Of a DNA stretch of 25,514 nt, positions 291 through 25,514 are shown one piece after another (position 1 is the first letter of the stretch; every line of letters starts with the position of its first letter). The notes under the pieces were generated by a model. That model ran no database searches and was not told the origin of the DNA. It was given only the letters and a program-made list of their open reading frames with translations. Origin of the DNA: a virus. A program made the position numbers and the translations under genes. Where the stretch lies: positions 1 through 25,514 of the IMG/VR virus record IMGVR_UViG_3300015261_000017; one strand, 5' to 3'.

Positions 291-1497
291 CTCCGATCTC
301 GCGATTCGGCGTTCCAAGCCGACCGGCAAAACCCAGAAGCTCTTCGACGGCGGCGGTCTCTACCTGGAGATCTCCCCAGCCGGTGGCCGGTGGTGGCGGA
401 TGAAGTACCGCTTCAACGGGAAGGAGAAGCGGCTGGCGTTGGGGGTGTACCCTGAGGTCTCGCTGCAGCTCGCGCGCAACCGCCGCGAGGACGCCAGGCG
501 GCTGCTGGCCGCCGGTACCGACCCCGGCCAGCAGAAGAAGGATGCCGCGGCCGCCAAGGCCGGCATGGACGCACTCACCTTCGGCGCGATAGCGCGCGAG
601 TGGATGAAGGGGCGGATCTGGGCCGATTCCTACCGCGTGAAGGTGGAGGCCTGGATGGAGAACGACGTGCTGCCGTGGATCGGGTCCCGGCAAGCAGCCG
701 ACCTGGAAGCGCCCGACTTCCTTTCGATCGCTAGGCGCATGGAGCGCCGCGGAGCCATCGAGTCGGGGCACCGGGTAATCCAGAACTGCGGCCAGATCAT
801 GCGGTATGCCATCGCCTCGGGCATCGCGAAGCGAAACCCGGTGGCCGACCTGCGCGGCGCCCTGCAGCCGAAGCCGAAGCGCCACTACGCGGCAATCACC
901 GATGCCAAGGACCTGGCGCCGCTGCTGCGCGCCATCCACGCGTACACCGGGCGTGCGGTCACCCGCTGGGCCCTCGCCCTGGCGCCGCTGGTGTTCCTGC
1001 GCCCCGGGGAGCTGCGACAGGCGGAGTGGTCGGAGTTCGATCTGGACGCCGGCCTCTGGCTGATTCCGGCCTCCCGGATGAAGATGCGCACGGAGCATCT
1101 GGTGCCGCTGTCGCGCCAGGCGATGGAGATCCTTCGCGAGATCCACCCGCTCACGAACCGGGGCCGGTTCGTGTTCCCCGGCCGCAACAGCAGCGCGCGC
1201 CCGCTGAGCGAAAACACAGTGAACAGCGCCCTACGGCGCATGGGGTTTGAGGGTGACCAGATGACCGGGCACGGGTTCCGGGCCACGGCGCGCACCATCC
1301 TGGACGAGGTGCTGGGCTTCCGGCCCGATATCATCGAGCACCAGCTGGCGCACGCGGTAAAGGATCCGAACGGCCGGGCCTACAACCGAACCACGCACCT
1401 GGCAGAGCGCACCCGGATGATGCAGGATTGGGCGGACTACCTGGACCGCCTGCGCTGCGGGAATGTGGTGGCGATGCTCTCAAGCGAGGCTGCCTAG
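280..1497 (+). CDS. int: P4-type tyrosine integrase
   Basis: Site-specific tyrosine recombinase (405 aa) that inserts and excises the element at the adjacent tRNA-Ala. The N-terminus (about 1-90) is the arm-binding DUF4102-type domain, with the motifs FDGGGLYL and RLALGVYP. A core-binding SAM-like domain covers about 98-190, and the catalytic domain runs from about 205. Visible catalytic residues are Arg241 (FLRPGE), probable Lys268, His331 and Arg334 (HGFR), His358 (QLAH) and the Tyr368 nucleophile (AYNR), so the enzyme looks intact. The chosen ATG gives the family-typical start MPPLSDLAIR. No clear Shine-Dalgarno is present, and the start codon sits in a large inverted repeat, suggesting low or controlled translation. 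It is transcribed in the same direction as the tRNA, away from its 3' end. The length is normal for the family. Confidence 0.96.
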   Translation: MPPLSDLAIRRSKPTGKTQKLFDGGGLYLEISPAGGRWWRMKYRFNGKEKRLALGVYPEVSLQLARNRREDARRLLAAGTDPGQQKKDAAAAKAGMDALTFGAIAREWMKGRIWADSYRVKVEAWMENDVLPWIGSRQAADLEAPDFLSIARRMERRGAIESGHRVIQNCGQIMRYAIASGIAKRNPVADLRGALQPKPKRHYAAITDAKDLAPLLRAIHAYTGRAVTRWALALAPLVFLRPGELRQAEWSEFDLDAGLWLIPASRMKMRTEHLVPLSRQAMEILREIHPLTNRGRFVFPGRNSSARPLSENTVNSALRRMGFEGDQMTGHGFRATARTILDEVLGFRPDIIEHQLAHAVKDPNGRAYNRTTHLAERTRMMQDWADYLDRLRCGNVVAMLSSEAA

Positions 1498-1562
1498 GTA
1501 ACCTTGCAACGCGAGCTCCGATGCGCGAATCTGCTGCGAACTCAGAGAACAAGGACAGTCCT

Positions 1563-2258
1563 GTGCGGAAAATCGATCCAACCTCGGTGAAGACGGACTT
1601 CATTGACCAGGTACAGGGAATCCGAACTTTCTACGCTGCGGGCCTGGACGGATTACCGAACAAAAGCGATCAGTCAACTCTTAGCGAGCATATGCTGATG
1701 GCGGCAGCCGTGAGTTGGGAGGGCTTCGTCAGCGACATGTTCATCGCTTACATGAATCGCAATCCATCACAGCTAAAAATTCACCTGCAAAATTCCTTCG
1801 ACGAGCAGCTGCGCAATAGCGGAAAGCCCAAAGCACTACATGATCGTTTTGGAAAAATCACATTTCCGACTCATCTCAGCAAGGCCGACGTGCAATCGCT
1901 AGCCAATCCTTCAGGCAATAACATCACGTACTCGAATTACGCGTTACTCAAAGAAGGTGCAGTGCGACTTCTTTCTCCCGATCATGCGGAAAAGTTCACG
2001 AAAGTATCTTCTAAAAGTAGCGCGACCATTGACGCGTTGATCTCGATAAGAAATCACATTGCACACAGAAGTGAGCGGTCGGGCCAGGCAATGAACGATG
2101 CTCTGAACGCTGCGGCGCTGCACTCGACTGGCCTAAAACGTGGGGTGAACAAGCCGGCGAACGTAGGAGCGTGGCTCAAGGCAAAGGCGAAGGGCAAAGC
2201 GGATAGTCGTTTGGAAATTGTGCTCACGACGTTGGATAGCATCGCGAACACCTTCTGA
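1563..2258 (+). CDS. HEPN-domain protein, probable RNase-type defence cargo
   Basis: The product is 231 aa from a GTG at 1563, preceded by AAGGA (1551-1555) at 7-nt spacing. An upstream in-frame ATG at 1521 lacks a good ribosome site. Near the C-terminus the motif RNHIAH (Arg163 to His168) matches the R-x4-H catalytic signature of HEPN ribonucleases. The preceding helical segment, including HMLMAAAVSWEGF (43-55), resembles the first helices of RiboL-PSP/MAE_28990-type HEPN families. No signal peptide or membrane segment is visible. The gene is clearly AT-richer than int and the structural genes, which points to separate acquisition. Its position just behind int is a common place for prophage-carried anti-phage or abortive-infection genes. 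No partner antitoxin gene is evident. The RNase role is inferred; the motif is seen. Confidence 0.7.
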   Translation: MRKIDPTSVKTDFIDQVQGIRTFYAAGLDGLPNKSDQSTLSEHMLMAAAVSWEGFVSDMFIAYMNRNPSQLKIHLQNSFDEQLRNSGKPKALHDRFGKITFPTHLSKADVQSLANPSGNNITYSNYALLKEGAVRLLSPDHAEKFTKVSSKSSATIDALISIRNHIAHRSERSGQAMNDALNAAALHSTGLKRGVNKPANVGAWLKAKAKGKADSRLEIVLTTLDSIANTF

Positions 2259-2281
2259 AACTTGGCGGTGGCACAGCGGCG

Positions 2282-2566
2282 TCATGCAGCCTCGTCGTCC
2301 GGGCGGGGATTTAAGCGGGTCGCGATTCGATCAAAACGCGCCGCCTCGGCGCGGAGGCGCTCAGCGCCGCGCCGGCAAGTCGCCCTCGAGCGCCAGTCGC
2401 CGCTGTGATTCATGTCCAAGGCGTCGGCCTGCTGCCACAGCGAAGCCGCCCGTGCGCGCGCCCAGCGCGCCTTGCCGCTGTCTGCTTTCGTCATGGGGTA
2501 ATGGTGAATGCGGGTCGTCGCACGGGACGATACGTAGGCAACGGCGGCTGACTGCCGCGGGCTCAT
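2282..2566 (-). CDS. Small hypothetical protein (94 aa)
   Basis: Function not recognised. The protein is basic and rich in Ala and Arg (many AR and RA dipeptides), probably mostly helical, with no signal peptide or membrane segment. Its ATG overlaps the stop of the upstream minus-strand gene as ATGA (2563-2566), which suggests translational coupling and supports it as a real gene. It ends 23 bp from the convergent HEPN gene with no clear terminator between them. The strong Arg/Ala bias is also what a chance frame in GC-rich DNA looks like, so confidence is moderate. Confidence 0.5.
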   Translation of the reverse strand: MSPRQSAAVAYVSSRATTRIHHYPMTKADSGKARWARARAASLWQQADALDMNHSGDWRSRATCRRGAERLRAEAARFDRIATRLNPRPDDEAA

Positions 2567-2868
2567 CGCATCAGGAACGGCTTCCCGATGCGCAGCTGCT
2601 TGATCCGCTGATCCACCTCAGCGCGCAGCCTCTCCTGGTGGCGTGCCGCCCACAGCTCTGCGCCGGCCTTGCCCTGCTCGTAGCTGCTGCACTCGCGGTG
2701 CTTCCGCAGGTTCCAGTCGTCCCTCTGGTTGTTCAAGCTGACCCACCAGGTGCCATCGTCTACGCGCCTGTGCAGGCGCAGGACCTCGGTGCTGTCCAGC
2801 AGCAGCGAGTTGGGCTGGTCGAAGGGTGCGGTGCCGACGGAATGCCAGCGGAAGTCGGGCGGGAGCAT
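2563..2868 (-). CDS. Hypothetical phage accessory protein (101 aa)
   Basis: No known domain was recognised. The sequence has a balanced, folded-looking composition, with several Trp residues (FRWHSVG, GTWWVSL) and a helical charged C-terminus (ELWAARHQERLRAEV). It starts at the ATG at 2868, preceded by AGGA with 9-nt spacing; a longer TTG start at 2898 is less likely. The stop overlaps the next gene's ATG, so the pair is probably co-translated. It follows a structured non-coding stretch (2869-3078). Short unknown proteins of this look are common in accessory regions of Xanthomonadaceae prophages; that is recollection, not a search result. Confidence 0.6.
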   Translation of the reverse strand: MLPPDFRWHSVGTAPFDQPNSLLLDSTEVLRLHRRVDDGTWWVSLNNQRDDWNLRKHRECSSYEQGKAGAELWAARHQERLRAEVDQRIKQLRIGKPFLMR

Positions 2869-2931
2869 GGCGCGGAATCCTACGGGTCCGGCTCTCAAAT
2901 CCTGCGACGGTGGCCGGGGAACGTCCGCCTC

Positions 2932-3018
2932 GCGGATCCGCAGGGTGATCGGGCGAGTGCGGTGTCGCCCTGCCCTGCGGATCCGCGCCGCGTCCAGCTG
3001 GAGTCCACCCGTAGGTGG
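2932..3018 (-). other. Strongly structured non-coding stretch between small genes
   Basis: No convincing gene lies in 2869-3078. GCGGATCCGCAGGG (2932-2945) is a perfect inverted repeat with CCCTGCGGATCCGC (2973-2986). Nested inside, GGGCGA (2951-2956) pairs with TCGCCC (2965-2970) around an 8-nt loop. Read on the minus strand, it is preceded by a short hairpin, CCACC-TACG-GGTGG (3005-3018), whose loop is of the stable UNCG type. There is no T-run, so it is not a standard terminator. It could be a small RNA, a 5'-UTR control element for the downstream gene, or a protein-binding site. Confidence 0.55.
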
Positions 3019-3078
3019 TGTCTCCCCCGATGTTGGGAAGAGGATTGCGCTGGCGCGGTGAAGGCAACGCGAATCGGA

Positions 3079-3447
3079 TTACCCACACCGCTGGGTAGGC
3101 AGGCCAGCGACTGCCGGCAACGCCGGCGGGCGCGCGGGCAGCCTGCATCGACCAGGAATCGCCCAGAGTCCTTCCCGATTCACATCACAGTTCCAATCCT
3201 GGCCCACCAAGGTCTCGGAGGGACCATGCGGACGGCGGCACGAGCGATAGATCGCATCCGCCACCGCCTCCATCTCGGTGGAGAACCACCGGTAGCCGTC
3301 TACGCAAATCTCAACCGGGTGGTCGGCGGGGTGTGGGTACTGAGGGACGAGCTCTTCGAGCTGCGCAGCCGCTTCGTCGATGGTGAGTTCACGGAAGCCC
3401 GGGGCGGCCGCCCATCGGTCCAGTTTGCTGATCGCACCTGGGGTCAT
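3079..3447 (-). CDS. Hypothetical protein (122 aa)
   Basis: Function not recognised. It starts at the ATG at 3447 with GGAG seven bases upstream; a longer version from 3486 lacks such a site. The N-terminal two thirds look like a folded acidic domain (ELTIDEAAAQLEELVPQYP, then VEICVDGYRWFSTEMEA). The last 25 residues are Pro/Arg/Ala-rich and may be a disordered tail. No signal peptide or membrane segment is visible. It is the first of three minus-strand small genes and is divergent from the SRAP gene; the 97 bp between them should hold both promoters. Confidence 0.6.
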   Translation of the reverse strand: MTPGAISKLDRWAAAPGFRELTIDEAAAQLEELVPQYPHPADHPVEICVDGYRWFSTEMEAVADAIYRSCRRPHGPSETLVGQDWNCDVNREGLWAIPGRCRLPARPPALPAVAGLPTQRCG

Positions 3448-3544
3448 TGTGGTGCTCCCTTCACGAGCCGGGCACCAGATAATCACGCAACAAAGGTAAA
3501 AGTGGCGCGAATGGCCAATATCAAATAGGGAAGAAGGTCACATT

Positions 3545-4207
3545 ATGTGCGGCCGATTTGTCCAAACTCCTATCCGAGACGCTGCCGGCCTGGGCGTCCC
3601 TCAGCTGGTGGGAGACCTGCTGTCCCTGCCGGCCAGCTACAACCTGGCGCCAACGCAGCGCGCAGCGGTCGTGCTGGACAGGGGCGAAGGCCTGCAGGTG
3701 CAGAGACTGGCTTGGGGCCTGCTGCCGTTCTGGGCCACCACTAAGGGTCTGCAGGGCTCGACCATCAATGCCCGCATCGAGACGGTGGCCACGAAGCCGG
3801 CGTTCCGCAGCGCGTTCAAGGCGCGGCGTTGCCTGATCCCGATGGCCGGCTACTACGAGTGGTCCGTCAACCCCGATGACAACGGGAAGGACCCATGGTT
3901 CATCCATGCAGCCACGCCATTGTGGGCAGCCGGGCTGTGGGAGGACGCGAGCAAGCTGCTGGATGATGGCAACGTCGGGACCTTCACCGTCATCACCGGG
4001 GACAGCAGCGGGGTGTCGGCGGATATCCACGACCGCATGCCGGTGTGGCTGGCCCCTGGTCAGGCCGAAGAGTGGATGAAGGCGGACGCCAACGGGGCCA
4101 TGGCGATGCTGTTGGCCAGCGAGCCCCCGGCAATGGAGGCGTACCGCGTCAGCCGCGACGTCAACGCCCCGCGCAACAACACCGAGGCGCTTTTGGAGCC
4201 CGTGTAG
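3545..4207 (+). CDS. SRAP-family DNA-protein crosslink / abasic-site sensor (YedK/HMCES-like)
   Basis: SOS response-associated peptidase family (220 aa, normal length). Members bind abasic sites in single-stranded DNA and form a thiazolidine crosslink through Cys2 once Met1 is removed, shielding the lesion at replication forks. The key residues are visible: Cys2 (MCGRF), Asn33 (YNLAPTQ), Asn75 and Arg77 (NARIET), Glu105 (GYYEW) and His162 (HDRMPV). All positions match the family pattern, so the protein should be active. It starts at the first ATG, whose Cys2 context makes the start certain; GAAGAAGG lies upstream. The gene is on the plus strand in the accessory region, opposite to the structural genes, and likely has its own promoter in 3448-3544. 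I saw no clear LexA box there. It probably protects phage DNA or helps survival of host DNA damage during induction. Confidence 0.93.
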   Translation: MCGRFVQTPIRDAAGLGVPQLVGDLLSLPASYNLAPTQRAAVVLDRGEGLQVQRLAWGLLPFWATTKGLQGSTINARIETVATKPAFRSAFKARRCLIPMAGYYEWSVNPDDNGKDPWFIHAATPLWAAGLWEDASKLLDDGNVGTFTVITGDSSGVSADIHDRMPVWLAPGQAEEWMKADANGAMAMLLASEPPAMEAYRVSRDVNAPRNNTEALLEPV

Positions 4208-22068: not shown

Positions 22069-23004
22069 TCAGATGCCGTCCAGGTAGACGACTTCCTTCG
22101 GCAGGCGGACGTCCAGGCCACCGAGGCGCATGACGCCCGGGATGTCCCAGCGCAGCGGGCCGCTCTGCCAGGCCGGCAGGAAGCGGTGCGGCATCGGCAT
22201 GTGCAGCTTCAGCACTTCCGGATCGTTGCGGTAAGCAATCAGGCGGGCCGTGCCGCCGACACCGGCGGTATCGAGCCCGCGCACCCCGCGCAGGGTCAGC
22301 TGCTGGCCCGTCTGCACCGTGTACAGGTTGTTGGCCATGTACCACTGGATGACGGTCATGTCGCTGTTGTCACTCATCTTGCGAGTGGCCAGCAGGTTGA
22401 ACTTCGTCCAAGGGAGCAGCAGCGTGTCCGCGATGGACACCGTGTTCGTGCCGTTGAACACGTTGAGCAGTGCCTGATTCAGCACGCTGACGATCAGGTT
22501 GGTATCCGTGGTGGCGTCCCAGCTGCCGGTCTGCGCCGCGATCGGTGTCACACCTGCGGCGTTGAACAGGCCGGTGAAGCCCTTCGCCTCGTCGCCCTGC
22601 AGCGCCACGCGATCAACCATTTCTTCCGACGCCTTGCGAGCAGCGGCCGCGTCGTCGGATTGCAGACCGATGCCCAGGAGTTGCGCACGGCCGATCTCTT
22701 CCCAGCCGAAGCCGTAGCCGATACCTGCGGTGTGCACTCCGGTCTGATGCTGGGCGCGGTTAGTGCCAGCCTTCGGAATATCGTCGGCATTGCCGTTGAT
22801 CCAGCCAGCCTTGCCGAACTGGTCCTGGGAGTAGTAGGTGACCGAGGTGGCGAACTCGCTACCCGACGTATCGACCGGGATCAGGTCGCGGTACTGAACC
22901 GCGGGATAGCGCGTCTTGTAGACGCCCGGCTCGATGATCGATGCCTGCGCGACAACGAAGCCCAGTGCGACCTGGGCATCGAAGAGGGGGATTGCTCCAT
23001 TCAT
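22069..23004 (-). CDS. Major capsid protein (DUF2184-type, HK97 fold)
   Basis: The product is 311 aa and forms the icosahedral shell. It has the DUF2184 pattern: TRYPAVQYRDLIPVDTSGSE near the N-terminus, GIGYGFGWEEI at about 95-105, a central region reading ASEEMVDRVALQGDEAKGFT, and the end segment PMPHRFLPAWQSGP then RLGGLDVRLPKEVVYLDGI. No N-terminal scaffold-like delta domain is present, which agrees with a separate scaffold made from the upstream gene. GGAG lies eight bases before the ATG. It is followed by a strong hairpin. Confidence 0.93.
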   Translation of the reverse strand: MNGAIPLFDAQVALGFVVAQASIIEPGVYKTRYPAVQYRDLIPVDTSGSEFATSVTYYSQDQFGKAGWINGNADDIPKAGTNRAQHQTGVHTAGIGYGFGWEEIGRAQLLGIGLQSDDAAAARKASEEMVDRVALQGDEAKGFTGLFNAAGVTPIAAQTGSWDATTDTNLIVSVLNQALLNVFNGTNTVSIADTLLLPWTKFNLLATRKMSDNSDMTVIQWYMANNLYTVQTGQQLTLRGVRGLDTAGVGGTARLIAYRNDPEVLKLHMPMPHRFLPAWQSGPLRWDIPGVMRLGGLDVRLPKEVVYLDGI

Positions 23005-23472: not shown

Positions 23473-24015
23473 TTAGGCGTCCTTCTGGTTGCGGGTGCGG
23501 TAGTCGAGGCCGGCCACGGAGGCCTGCCAGCCGTTGTCCTGCACGGTGGTGCGCTGGCCACCGTTATCGCGCATGGCCTGCACGACCGGATCCTTCGGCG
23601 CGGCGTTGGTGTAGAGGCCGTCGAACAGCGCCTCGACATAGGCTTCGTGCTTTCCGGTCACTGCGGCGTCGCCGAGCTTGGCCACCACGGCAGCCTGACG
23701 CACCTGTGCGTCGGTCTTGCCGCTGTAGTCGGCGTCGTGCACGGCCTTGGCCTTGGCAAGCAGGTCGCCGCGCTGCTGGACGCGCTTGTCCAGGTCGGCA
23801 TCGCTCAGGACCTGGGCCTTGAGCGCATCTCGCTCGCCTTCGGCCTTGGCGATGGCCGCGTCCTTTGCGGTGATGGTGGCCTGATGCGCGGCCTCGGCGG
23901 TGCCAGCCGCCGTCTGCGCATCCTTCAGCTGCTGCTGCAGCTTGCTGATGGCCTGGGCGCCGGCGTCGTTGGTGACGACGGACAGCCCATCGACCAAGAT
24001 GGTCTTGTCGCTCAT
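23473..24015 (-). CDS. Internal in-frame scaffold protein (nested start)
   Basis: At 24015 an in-frame ATG (MSDKTILVDGL) follows AGGAGA at five-base spacing, better than the ribosome site of the full gene. It falls exactly at the boundary between the Pro-rich linker and the coiled coil, giving a 180-aa protein equal to the scaffold part. This copies the lambda C/Nu3 arrangement, in which scaffold is made in excess from a start within the protease gene. Seen: site and boundary. Inferred: that it is used. Confidence 0.75.
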   Translation of the reverse strand: MSDKTILVDGLSVVTNDAGAQAISKLQQQLKDAQTAAGTAEAAHQATITAKDAAIAKAEGERDALKAQVLSDADLDKRVQQRGDLLAKAKAVHDADYSGKTDAQVRQAAVVAKLGDAAVTGKHEAYVEALFDGLYTNAAPKDPVVQAMRDNGGQRTTVQDNGWQASVAGLDYRTRNQKDA

Positions 24016-24594
24016 GTGGTTCTCCTGGGGTTGGGGATGGGCGCTTGGATCCGGAGCACCGGGGGTGCGCCCATCCCCGATGCGAAACTGAGAGCCGGCC
24101 CGGCCGCGCTGGACAAGGGCCAGATGGTTGTTGCGGATGTTTCGCTGGACCGCGTCGTAGGGTTCACCCTCCGGCGTCACCCCGTCGGTCCAATCGATCT
24201 CCGAGGAATACCCCTGCGACAGCTCGCGCTTGCCGGCCTCGTAGTCCGCGATCGCGTCCTGATCCATCAGCACCAGCGGAACACGCACTCGGTTCTTGTC
24301 GTGCACGACCTCGTCGCCGGTCTGGCCAACGGCATACTTTTTCCAGTTCTGCGCGTTCACCTGTTCCGGCGGGTGGTCGTTGGTCATTGGCCGGTGCGCG
24401 AAACTACGCAGCGTTGCATCGGAGAACACTTCCTCCGGTGGCCGATAGACCCGAACGTTCAACAGGTCAGGCCGCCCCAGCTCTTCTCCCAAATAGGTCT
24501 GGATGCCGGTCCGCGCCACGTATGCATCGGCCACGAGGTAGCCGTCCACGGTGCGGCGGGGCGCCGACACCGAGACGTGATCGATTAGGTACAT
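23473..24594 (-). CDS. DUF2213 prohead protease with fused scaffold
   Basis: The product is 373 aa from the ATG at 24594, with GAGAGGA eight bases upstream; a TTG start at 24636 is less likely because it overlaps the portal. Residues 1-180 form a protease domain of the DUF2213 type. Candidate catalytic residues are His74 (TNDHPP) and Ser126 (ELSQGYS), as in herpesvirus-like prohead proteases. A Pro-rich linker follows (PDPSAHPQPQ). The C-terminal 180 residues are a long coiled coil (ISKLQQQLKDAQTAAG onward), the usual look of a scaffold. The protease cuts the scaffold and itself during head maturation. An internal start with a strong ribosome site (24015) can make the scaffold alone. Confidence 0.88.
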   Translation of the reverse strand: MYLIDHVSVSAPRRTVDGYLVADAYVARTGIQTYLGEELGRPDLLNVRVYRPPEEVFSDATLRSFAHRPMTNDHPPEQVNAQNWKKYAVGQTGDEVVHDKNRVRVPLVLMDQDAIADYEAGKRELSQGYSSEIDWTDGVTPEGEPYDAVQRNIRNNHLALVQRGRAGSQFRIGDGRTPGAPDPSAHPQPQENHMSDKTILVDGLSVVTNDAGAQAISKLQQQLKDAQTAAGTAEAAHQATITAKDAAIAKAEGERDALKAQVLSDADLDKRVQQRGDLLAKAKAVHDADYSGKTDAQVRQAAVVAKLGDAAVTGKHEAYVEALFDGLYTNAAPKDPVVQAMRDNGGQRTTVQDNGWQASVAGLDYRTRNQKDA

Positions 24595-24598
24595 GGGG

Positions 24599-25514
24599 TC
24601 AGTCCTCTCGGATCTCTTCGAAGATTTCCGGGCCAAGCACGATGCGGCCGCGGTACGGCTTGACCTTCAGCAGGTCGACGGGAGCCTTGGTAAGGCTGAT
24701 GTGCGGCGTGTAGTCCGGGTAATCGTGCGAGCCGCCGGCGCGGATGATGCTTTCGTGGCGCCAGCACAGCTGCGAAGACGCGAATAGCAGCACCGCCGAC
24801 ATGCCGCCCAGCGGCTCCACTGCCCGGGGACCGCCTTCCGGAATCACCAGCTGGTCGGATCCGTCGGTGCCCCAGTCATTGGCGTTGCCTGCCTTCATCC
24901 AGTCGAAGGCCTGGCGCGCGTAAGCGACCGTTACGTGCAGGTCGTCCCGCAAATCGGTGATGCCCTGCTCCTTCGCCCAGGCCGCGACGTCGCCGGTGTT
25001 CACCACCTTCCGGTGTACGTAGAGCGACCGGGGCGCGGCATCGACCACCGGGGTCACCGGCGCGCCGCCATCCTCCAGATCGTCCTCTTCCTGGTCGATC
25101 ACGTCTGGGTTGGCTTGCGCCCACTCCAGCATCTCTGCTTCCAAGCCAGGCACGACGCCGGCCTCGGTCAGCATGTTCACCGCCACAGTGGACATGACCG
25201 CGTCGGGCACCAGGCGGGTGTCGGCGATGGTCTTGATCGTGTCAGCCGTGGTCTTGCCGATGGTCGCCCGCTCCGTGTCGGTGGTCTGCCACAGGCTGCG
25301 CCAGTTGTAGAACACCTCCGGCGGCCTGCTGCCCAAAGCCGAGCGGATCAGGCATTCGTCCAGTACCTGCAGCGCCGGCGTCAGCACCAGCTCTTGCCCG
25401 GAGCTGATCCGGTCGTAGTAGTTGCGCAGGTCGCCCTCGCCCGTGGAGTTCAGCCCAGCCGGCGACTGGCCCAGCAGGCGGGTCATCGGGATGTCGGACG
25501 CTCCCGAGGACAGC
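24599..25514 (-). CDS. Portal protein (DUF1073 type) with C-terminal Acb1-like 2H phosphoesterase domain, partial
   Basis: The 5' part is beyond the right edge; about 305 residues are visible. The portal part shows the hallmark RLLGQSPAGLNSTGEGDLRN and YYDRI, then a helical stem/wing region with LVPDAVMS and EAGVVPGLEAEM. After an acidic/Pro linker (EEDDLEDGGAPVTP), a second domain begins at LYVHRKVVN. It contains two H-x-T/S motifs: HVT (24932-24937) and HIS (24698-24703), plus the segment LLFASSQLCWRHESI. This is the 2H phosphoesterase signature of Acb1-type anti-CBASS enzymes, which degrade cyclic nucleotide signals. The portal forms the DNA entry ring, so the enzyme domain would be carried on the head or made free by cleavage. 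It ends four bases before the protease start. Confidence 0.88.
   Translation of the reverse strand, partial: LSSGASDIPMTRLLGQSPAGLNSTGEGDLRNYYDRISSGQELVLTPALQVLDECLIRSALGSRPPEVFYNWRSLWQTTDTERATIGKTTADTIKTIADTRLVPDAVMSTVAVNMLTEAGVVPGLEAEMLEWAQANPDVIDQEEDDLEDGGAPVTPVVDAAPRSLYVHRKVVNTGDVAAWAKEQGITDLRDDLHVTVAYARQAFDWMKAGNANDWGTDGSDQLVIPEGGPRAVEPLGGMSAVLLFASSQLCWRHESIIRAGGSHDYPDYTPHISLTKAPVDLLKVKPYRGRIVLGPEIFEEIRED

Follow-up and report, generated by a model that had tools for sequence, protein, structure and literature searches.

An Acb1-family phosphoesterase domain at the C terminus of a phage portal protein, a putative anti-CBASS cargo

The portal protein of a 25.5-kb virus record (IMGVR_UViG_3300015261_000017; the whole stretch of 25,514 nucleotides is referred to as the window) ends with a 2H phosphoesterase domain of the Acb1 family, the anti-CBASS nuclease known from T4 (gene 57B) and Erwinia phage FBB1 (PDB 7t26/7t27; characterised in 2022, PMC9117128). 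The domain belongs to this family in sequence and predicted fold, retains the catalytic tetrad, is conserved among its relatives, and proved to be dispensable and frequently gained and lost. As to activity, substrate, timing and place of action, we infer that it is probably a catalytically competent enzyme carried as accessory portal cargo, which most likely opens host CBASS cyclic di- or trinucleotides in the producing cell.

Portal body, linker and Acb1 domain

At the left of the window lie a tRNA and an integrase, followed by a minus-strand head/tail operon, which reads from the right end through portal, head maturation protease, virion protein and major head protein to the connectors, tape measure and tail tip J. 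The contig is that of a temperate siphophage. The positions of the features discussed are listed in Table 1.

Table 1. Features of the portal-Acb1 gene and its neighbours in window coordinates
Feature	Position	Strand	Remarks
Portal gene, visible part	24599..25513	-	304 aa; 5' end cut by contig end; stop at 24599
End of portal domain proper	25232..25507	-	PF06381 profile positions 265-356; includes SPAGLNSTGE
Acidic linker, portal body to Acb1	25028..25141	-	Counterpart in L002 model: residues 432-449, pLDDT < 50
Acb1 (2H phosphoesterase) domain	24602..25027	-	PF23474
Tyr equivalent to Acb1 Y12 (nucleobase stacking)	25019..25021	-	Y16 of domain; in 200/200 fused relatives
First catalytic motif HVT	24929..24937	-	Domain residues 44-46; Acb1 H44, T46
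Second catalytic motif HIS	24695..24703	-	Domain residues 122-124; Acb1 H113, T115
Glu aligned with Acb1 E141 (adenine contact)	24617..24619	-	E150 of domain
Head maturation protease gene	23473..24636	-	phrog_530, E 2e-107; directly downstream, overlaps portal stop
Major head protein	22069..23004	-	phrog_264; late head operon context

The Pfam profile Phage_portal_3 matched residues 3-94 of the visible portal far over the cut-off (E 4.3e-33), and the motif SPAGLNSTGE, by which the earlier note had recognised a portal, lies at residues 17-26 of the visible frame. A complete portal of 596 aa is available from a relative (L002) with an Acb1 domain 98% identical to that of the window, and by Foldseek this full portal matched the Pam3 portal 8hds_A with E 6e-33. 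Based on the profile match, the position within the head operon and the match to 8hds_A, the protein was assigned to the PF06381 (HI1409-type) portals. About 70 residues, comprising helices and an acidic low-confidence linker, separate the end of portal homology from the Acb1 domain. Across the fused family the linker has a median length of about 42 residues with approximately 25% D/E, and that of L002 is predicted to be disordered.

The Acb1 profile PF23474 matched residues 163-304 with E 4.7e-29 (101 bits against a curated cut-off of 27), the single match to this profile in the window record. By phmmer the domain was aligned with solved Acb1 7t26 (E 1.6e-6), both catalytic motifs included, and also with the Pam3 portal in its C-terminal region. 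The order of acidic linker and Acb1-like domain, as read from the letters in the earlier note, was confirmed. The tetrad consists of H, T, H and S at the positions of Acb1 H44, T46, H113 and T115. The two motifs were found exactly as described, with a spacing of 78 residues (H44/T46 to H122/S124), but the second should be corrected to H-x-S, versus H-x-T in T4 Acb1. Chance as the origin of this spacing was ruled out by the profile scores, the predicted fold and the near-invariance across 200 sequences.

An AlphaFold2 model of the window domain, built with 48 relatives, showed a pLDDT of 87.6. Its best PDB matches were 7t26 and 7t27, the apo and cGAMP-bound forms of Acb1 (E ~1e-6, probability 1.00, TM 0.55-0.62), and within the predicted Acb1 fold both histidine motifs align with the Acb1 active site, in agreement with the earlier expectation. 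Next came 9q2y (a Burkholderia phage phosphodiesterase) and LigT, and the weaker matches comprised LigT, a plant cyclic phosphodiesterase and Usb1. L033 was left out of the structure predictions.

Among the ligand-contacting residues of Acb1 (roles according to Hobbs et al. 2022, PMC9117128), Y12 and E141 have equivalents in the window domain (Table 1), and the aromatic at the F107 position is Y116. The region of W74 contains insertions, and no unambiguous counterpart could be placed. The lid tryptophan W147, which covers the ligand in Acb1, is absent from the window domain because the protein stops at ...FEEIRED; it is missing throughout the window clade and kept by other fused relatives. This absence lowers the claim that substrate is handled identically as by Acb1. 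By sequence and fold the domain is still a member of the family, but such membership does not imply that it functions exactly as Acb1 does.

Conservation, gain and loss of the domain

The named relatives with Acb1 domains closest to that of the window are prophages of Stenotrophomonas/Xanthomonas. A fusion unique to the window was ruled out by 32 phage records with full-length matches and by at least 284 fused portal-Acb1 ORFs in the loci examined, which contain 200 distinct Acb1 domains among the matches listed; these counts were drawn from best-80 lists and do not estimate prevalence. The 200 distinct domains (median pairwise identity 57%) all carry Y12, T46 and H113, and all have T or S at position 115 (Ser in 72). 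H44 is kept in 197, and the H-T-H-T/S tetrad is complete in 197; the three exceptions carry Tyr (L157 and L081) or Arg (L249) in place of H44. E141 is kept in 165 of the 200 and replaced in about 17%. In view of this, of the missing lid tryptophan and of the unplaced W74, the substrate range may differ from that of Acb1. In the Xanthomonadaceae-type clade the median dN/dS was about 0.18 for the Acb1 domain versus 0.23 for the portal body. The Acb1 domain evolves under purifying selection. As judged from these sequences, a working enzyme should look like this, rather than a decoration, although the pattern is no proof of activity.

In a survey with the portal-body profile, many relatives were found without the Acb1 domain. 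The portal bodies of L181 and L182 are 86% identical to that of L002 and lack the domain; in comparison of these two with fused L007, DNA identity was 85-89% upstream and 93-96% downstream, the difference being confined to about 440 bp. The same pattern was observed between domainless L196 and fused L070, with DNA 93% and 96% identical on the two sides. Since near-identical phages exist with or without it, the domain is dispensable accessory cargo. A structural need for it was ruled out by these domainless near-twins, and the structural role that the earlier note had considered for an inactive domain does not agree with this accessory behaviour. Compensation by a stand-alone Acb1 is unlikely, as no Acb1 was found elsewhere in the seven domainless IMG/VR records or in CUB19, all possibly incomplete.

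On the portal-body tree, well-supported branches force at least 12-13 changes between fused and domainless states. Thinning of the rows had been done separately for the two states and raises the number of mixed sister pairs; a shuffle test was for this reason set aside, and only the minimum of forced changes was used. The portal-Acb1 fusion is common and has often been gained and lost. Short Asn-rich tails (QPNSNSED, NPANNE, NPANIDP) were found to end the domainless portals of L181, L182, L188, L196, L032, L175, L203 and L207, as if such a tail and the Acb1 domain replaced each other as alleles of the portal C terminus. In Synechococcus phage Yong-M3-232 (L178:158-2144), Acb1 is encoded as a separate gene overlapping the portal end in a different frame; this arrangement of two ORFs may reflect a genuine split of the gene, a programmed frameshift or an error in the sequence.

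Most fused Acb1 domains are located on PF06381 portals, a few on HK97-type portals (PF04860; L150, L151, L160, L268-L272, L274 and L275) and one on a Mu-type portal (PF06074; L157). In the tree the domains of the HK97- and Mu-type portals nest, with moderate support, among those borne by PF06381 portals, and the portal-fused domains form branches separate from the stand-alone enzymes of the T4 type. The Mu-type protein (L157:6720-8708) has YVT as its first motif, with Tyr for the first catalytic His and the rest kept, and an identical Acb1 domain is present in L258. Additional residues follow Acb1 in L160 and L274, and in L095:1848-4223 portal, Acb1 and a PBECR3 nuclease are joined in a single protein. 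In a Rubellimicrobium prophage (L159:5732-8897), a MuF gene that contains an intein-like stretch precedes a distinct gene in which Acb1 is fused to Gp49 (HigB-like).

Place of action and substrate

The portal C terminus points into the head in the related phage E217 (PMC10329688). For the Pam3 portal of the same architecture (8hds), 442 of 621 residues were modelled, with the Acb1 region outside the model; this, together with the predicted disorder of the L002 linker, suggests that the domain is either flexibly tethered in the head interior or removed by cleavage. After ejection the portal remains outside the cell together with the capsid. We know of no portal that enters the next cell, and therefore the particle as such should not quench the signal there; the earlier proposal that it might do so is left unsupported, in view of the inward-pointing C terminus of E217 and the unmodelled region of Pam3. 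For delivery, the domain would have to be set free, or else freshly made portal would have to act in the cell that produces the phage.

The second of these routes is favoured. The portal would be made with the Acb1 domain attached by a flexible linker, the paired H-x-T/H-x-S motifs would open CBASS cyclic di- or trinucleotides, and newly made or unassembled portal would act late in infection, in the phage-producing cell. CBASS-type SMODS cyclases were found in 7 of 99 genomes of the host family, making such a target plausible.

The main rival, itself rather unlikely, is that the domain is freed inside the head, for instance by the maturation protease cutting the linker, and is injected to disarm the cyclic-nucleotide immunity of the next host at once. 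The predicted disorder of the acidic linker, the location of the Acb1 domain outside the mature Pam3 portal model and the head maturation protease gene adjoining the portal, which makes the protease a candidate for freeing the tail domain, all agree with injection, and injection was already proposed for 2H-portal/MuF fusions in two papers (PMC5512222, PMC9503650). However, the absence from the cryo-EM model is explained equally well by flexibility, and L178 carries Acb1 as a separate gene after the portal. The chance appears low that a mobile, portal-specific Acb1 subfamily crosses between unrelated kinds of portal and, once set free in the head, is injected to act against CBASS before phage gene expression.

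It is also unlikely that the domain is an RNA-acting 2H enzyme, which would trim or cleave RNA (2',3'-cyclic phosphate ends) in the manner of LigT or Usb1 instead of destroying an immune signal. LigT, plant cyclic phosphodiesterase and Usb1 do appear among the weaker fold matches, base-contact residues vary, a PBECR3 nuclease domain follows Acb1 in L095, and an RNase is among the options offered by Iyer et al. 2017 (PMC5512222); nevertheless both sequence and fold are nearer to Acb1 than to LigT or Usb1, the Acb1-type Y12 never varies, and the window domain retains E141. That an inactive 2H fold merely decorates the portal crown is very improbable, because the loss of the first catalytic His in three of 200 fused domains stands against all four catalytic positions kept in 197, the lack of the domain in near-identical phages and its location outside the Pam3 portal model.

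Relation to known systems and additional observations

With Acb1 the window domain shares the sequence family, the fold, the H-x-T/H-x-[T/S] tetrad and the equivalents of Y12 and E141, but in contrast to the free enzyme it is fused to a portal, carries S for T115, belongs to a separate branch of the family, lacks the lid tryptophan as does its clade, and has a predicted activity only. Pam3 (Pseudanabaena phage, 8hds), phiPSA1 and RHEph04 possess the same portal family with a C-terminal Acb1 and are 44-52% identical over the visible length; Pam3 and RHEph04 retain the lid tryptophan, unlike the window clade, and the hosts differ. PHROG 146 already spans the portal-Acb1 fusion. No published activity was found for any portal-fused Acb1.

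Fusions of 2H domains to MuF or portal were described by Iyer et al. 2017 (PMC5512222) as possible RNases or as possible degraders of the nucleotides used in counter-invader systems, and by the same group in 2022 (PMC9503650) as proteins that may be carried in the virion, enter the host by injection and interfere with immune signalling. As far as the accessible parts of the two papers extend, these polyvalent effectors share architecture and proposed role with the window fusion, packaging and injection are predicted, and the name Acb1, dispensability and repeated gain and loss do not appear. The portal-2H fusion and the idea of counter-signalling were thus already published in 2017 and 2022, and the window adds another example. 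A literature search for Acb1 together with portal gave nothing relevant, the earlier proposals appearing under 2H and portal. New here are the Acb1 assignment checked by residue, the three portal families, the natural pairs with and without the domain, and the unmodelled domain of Pam3; no paper joining these points was found by a search that most subscription papers lay beyond. If the domain is active, an essential structural protein includes a counter-defence that is switched on or off among close relatives, for which the near-identical phage pairs are ready-made for testing, and annotation as portal only would overlook anti-CBASS potential.

PADLOC gave no match for the window portal and five other window ORFs. 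Between the integrase and tail genes (1428-4207, plus strand), one ORF showed a weak RiboL-PSP HEPN match just below the cut-off, overlapped by a 436-aa ORF without matches, and a SRAP protein is also encoded there; these ORFs are possible prophage-borne defence cargo. Two E. coli RefSeq partial portal pseudogenes (L266:2501-3259 and L267:2498-2935) are named 'anti-CBASS protein Acb1 family protein'. Their matches are to portions of the SEN34 portal, a protein with the portal domain alone, and this misleading name wrongly implies anti-CBASS potential for domainless portal fragments.
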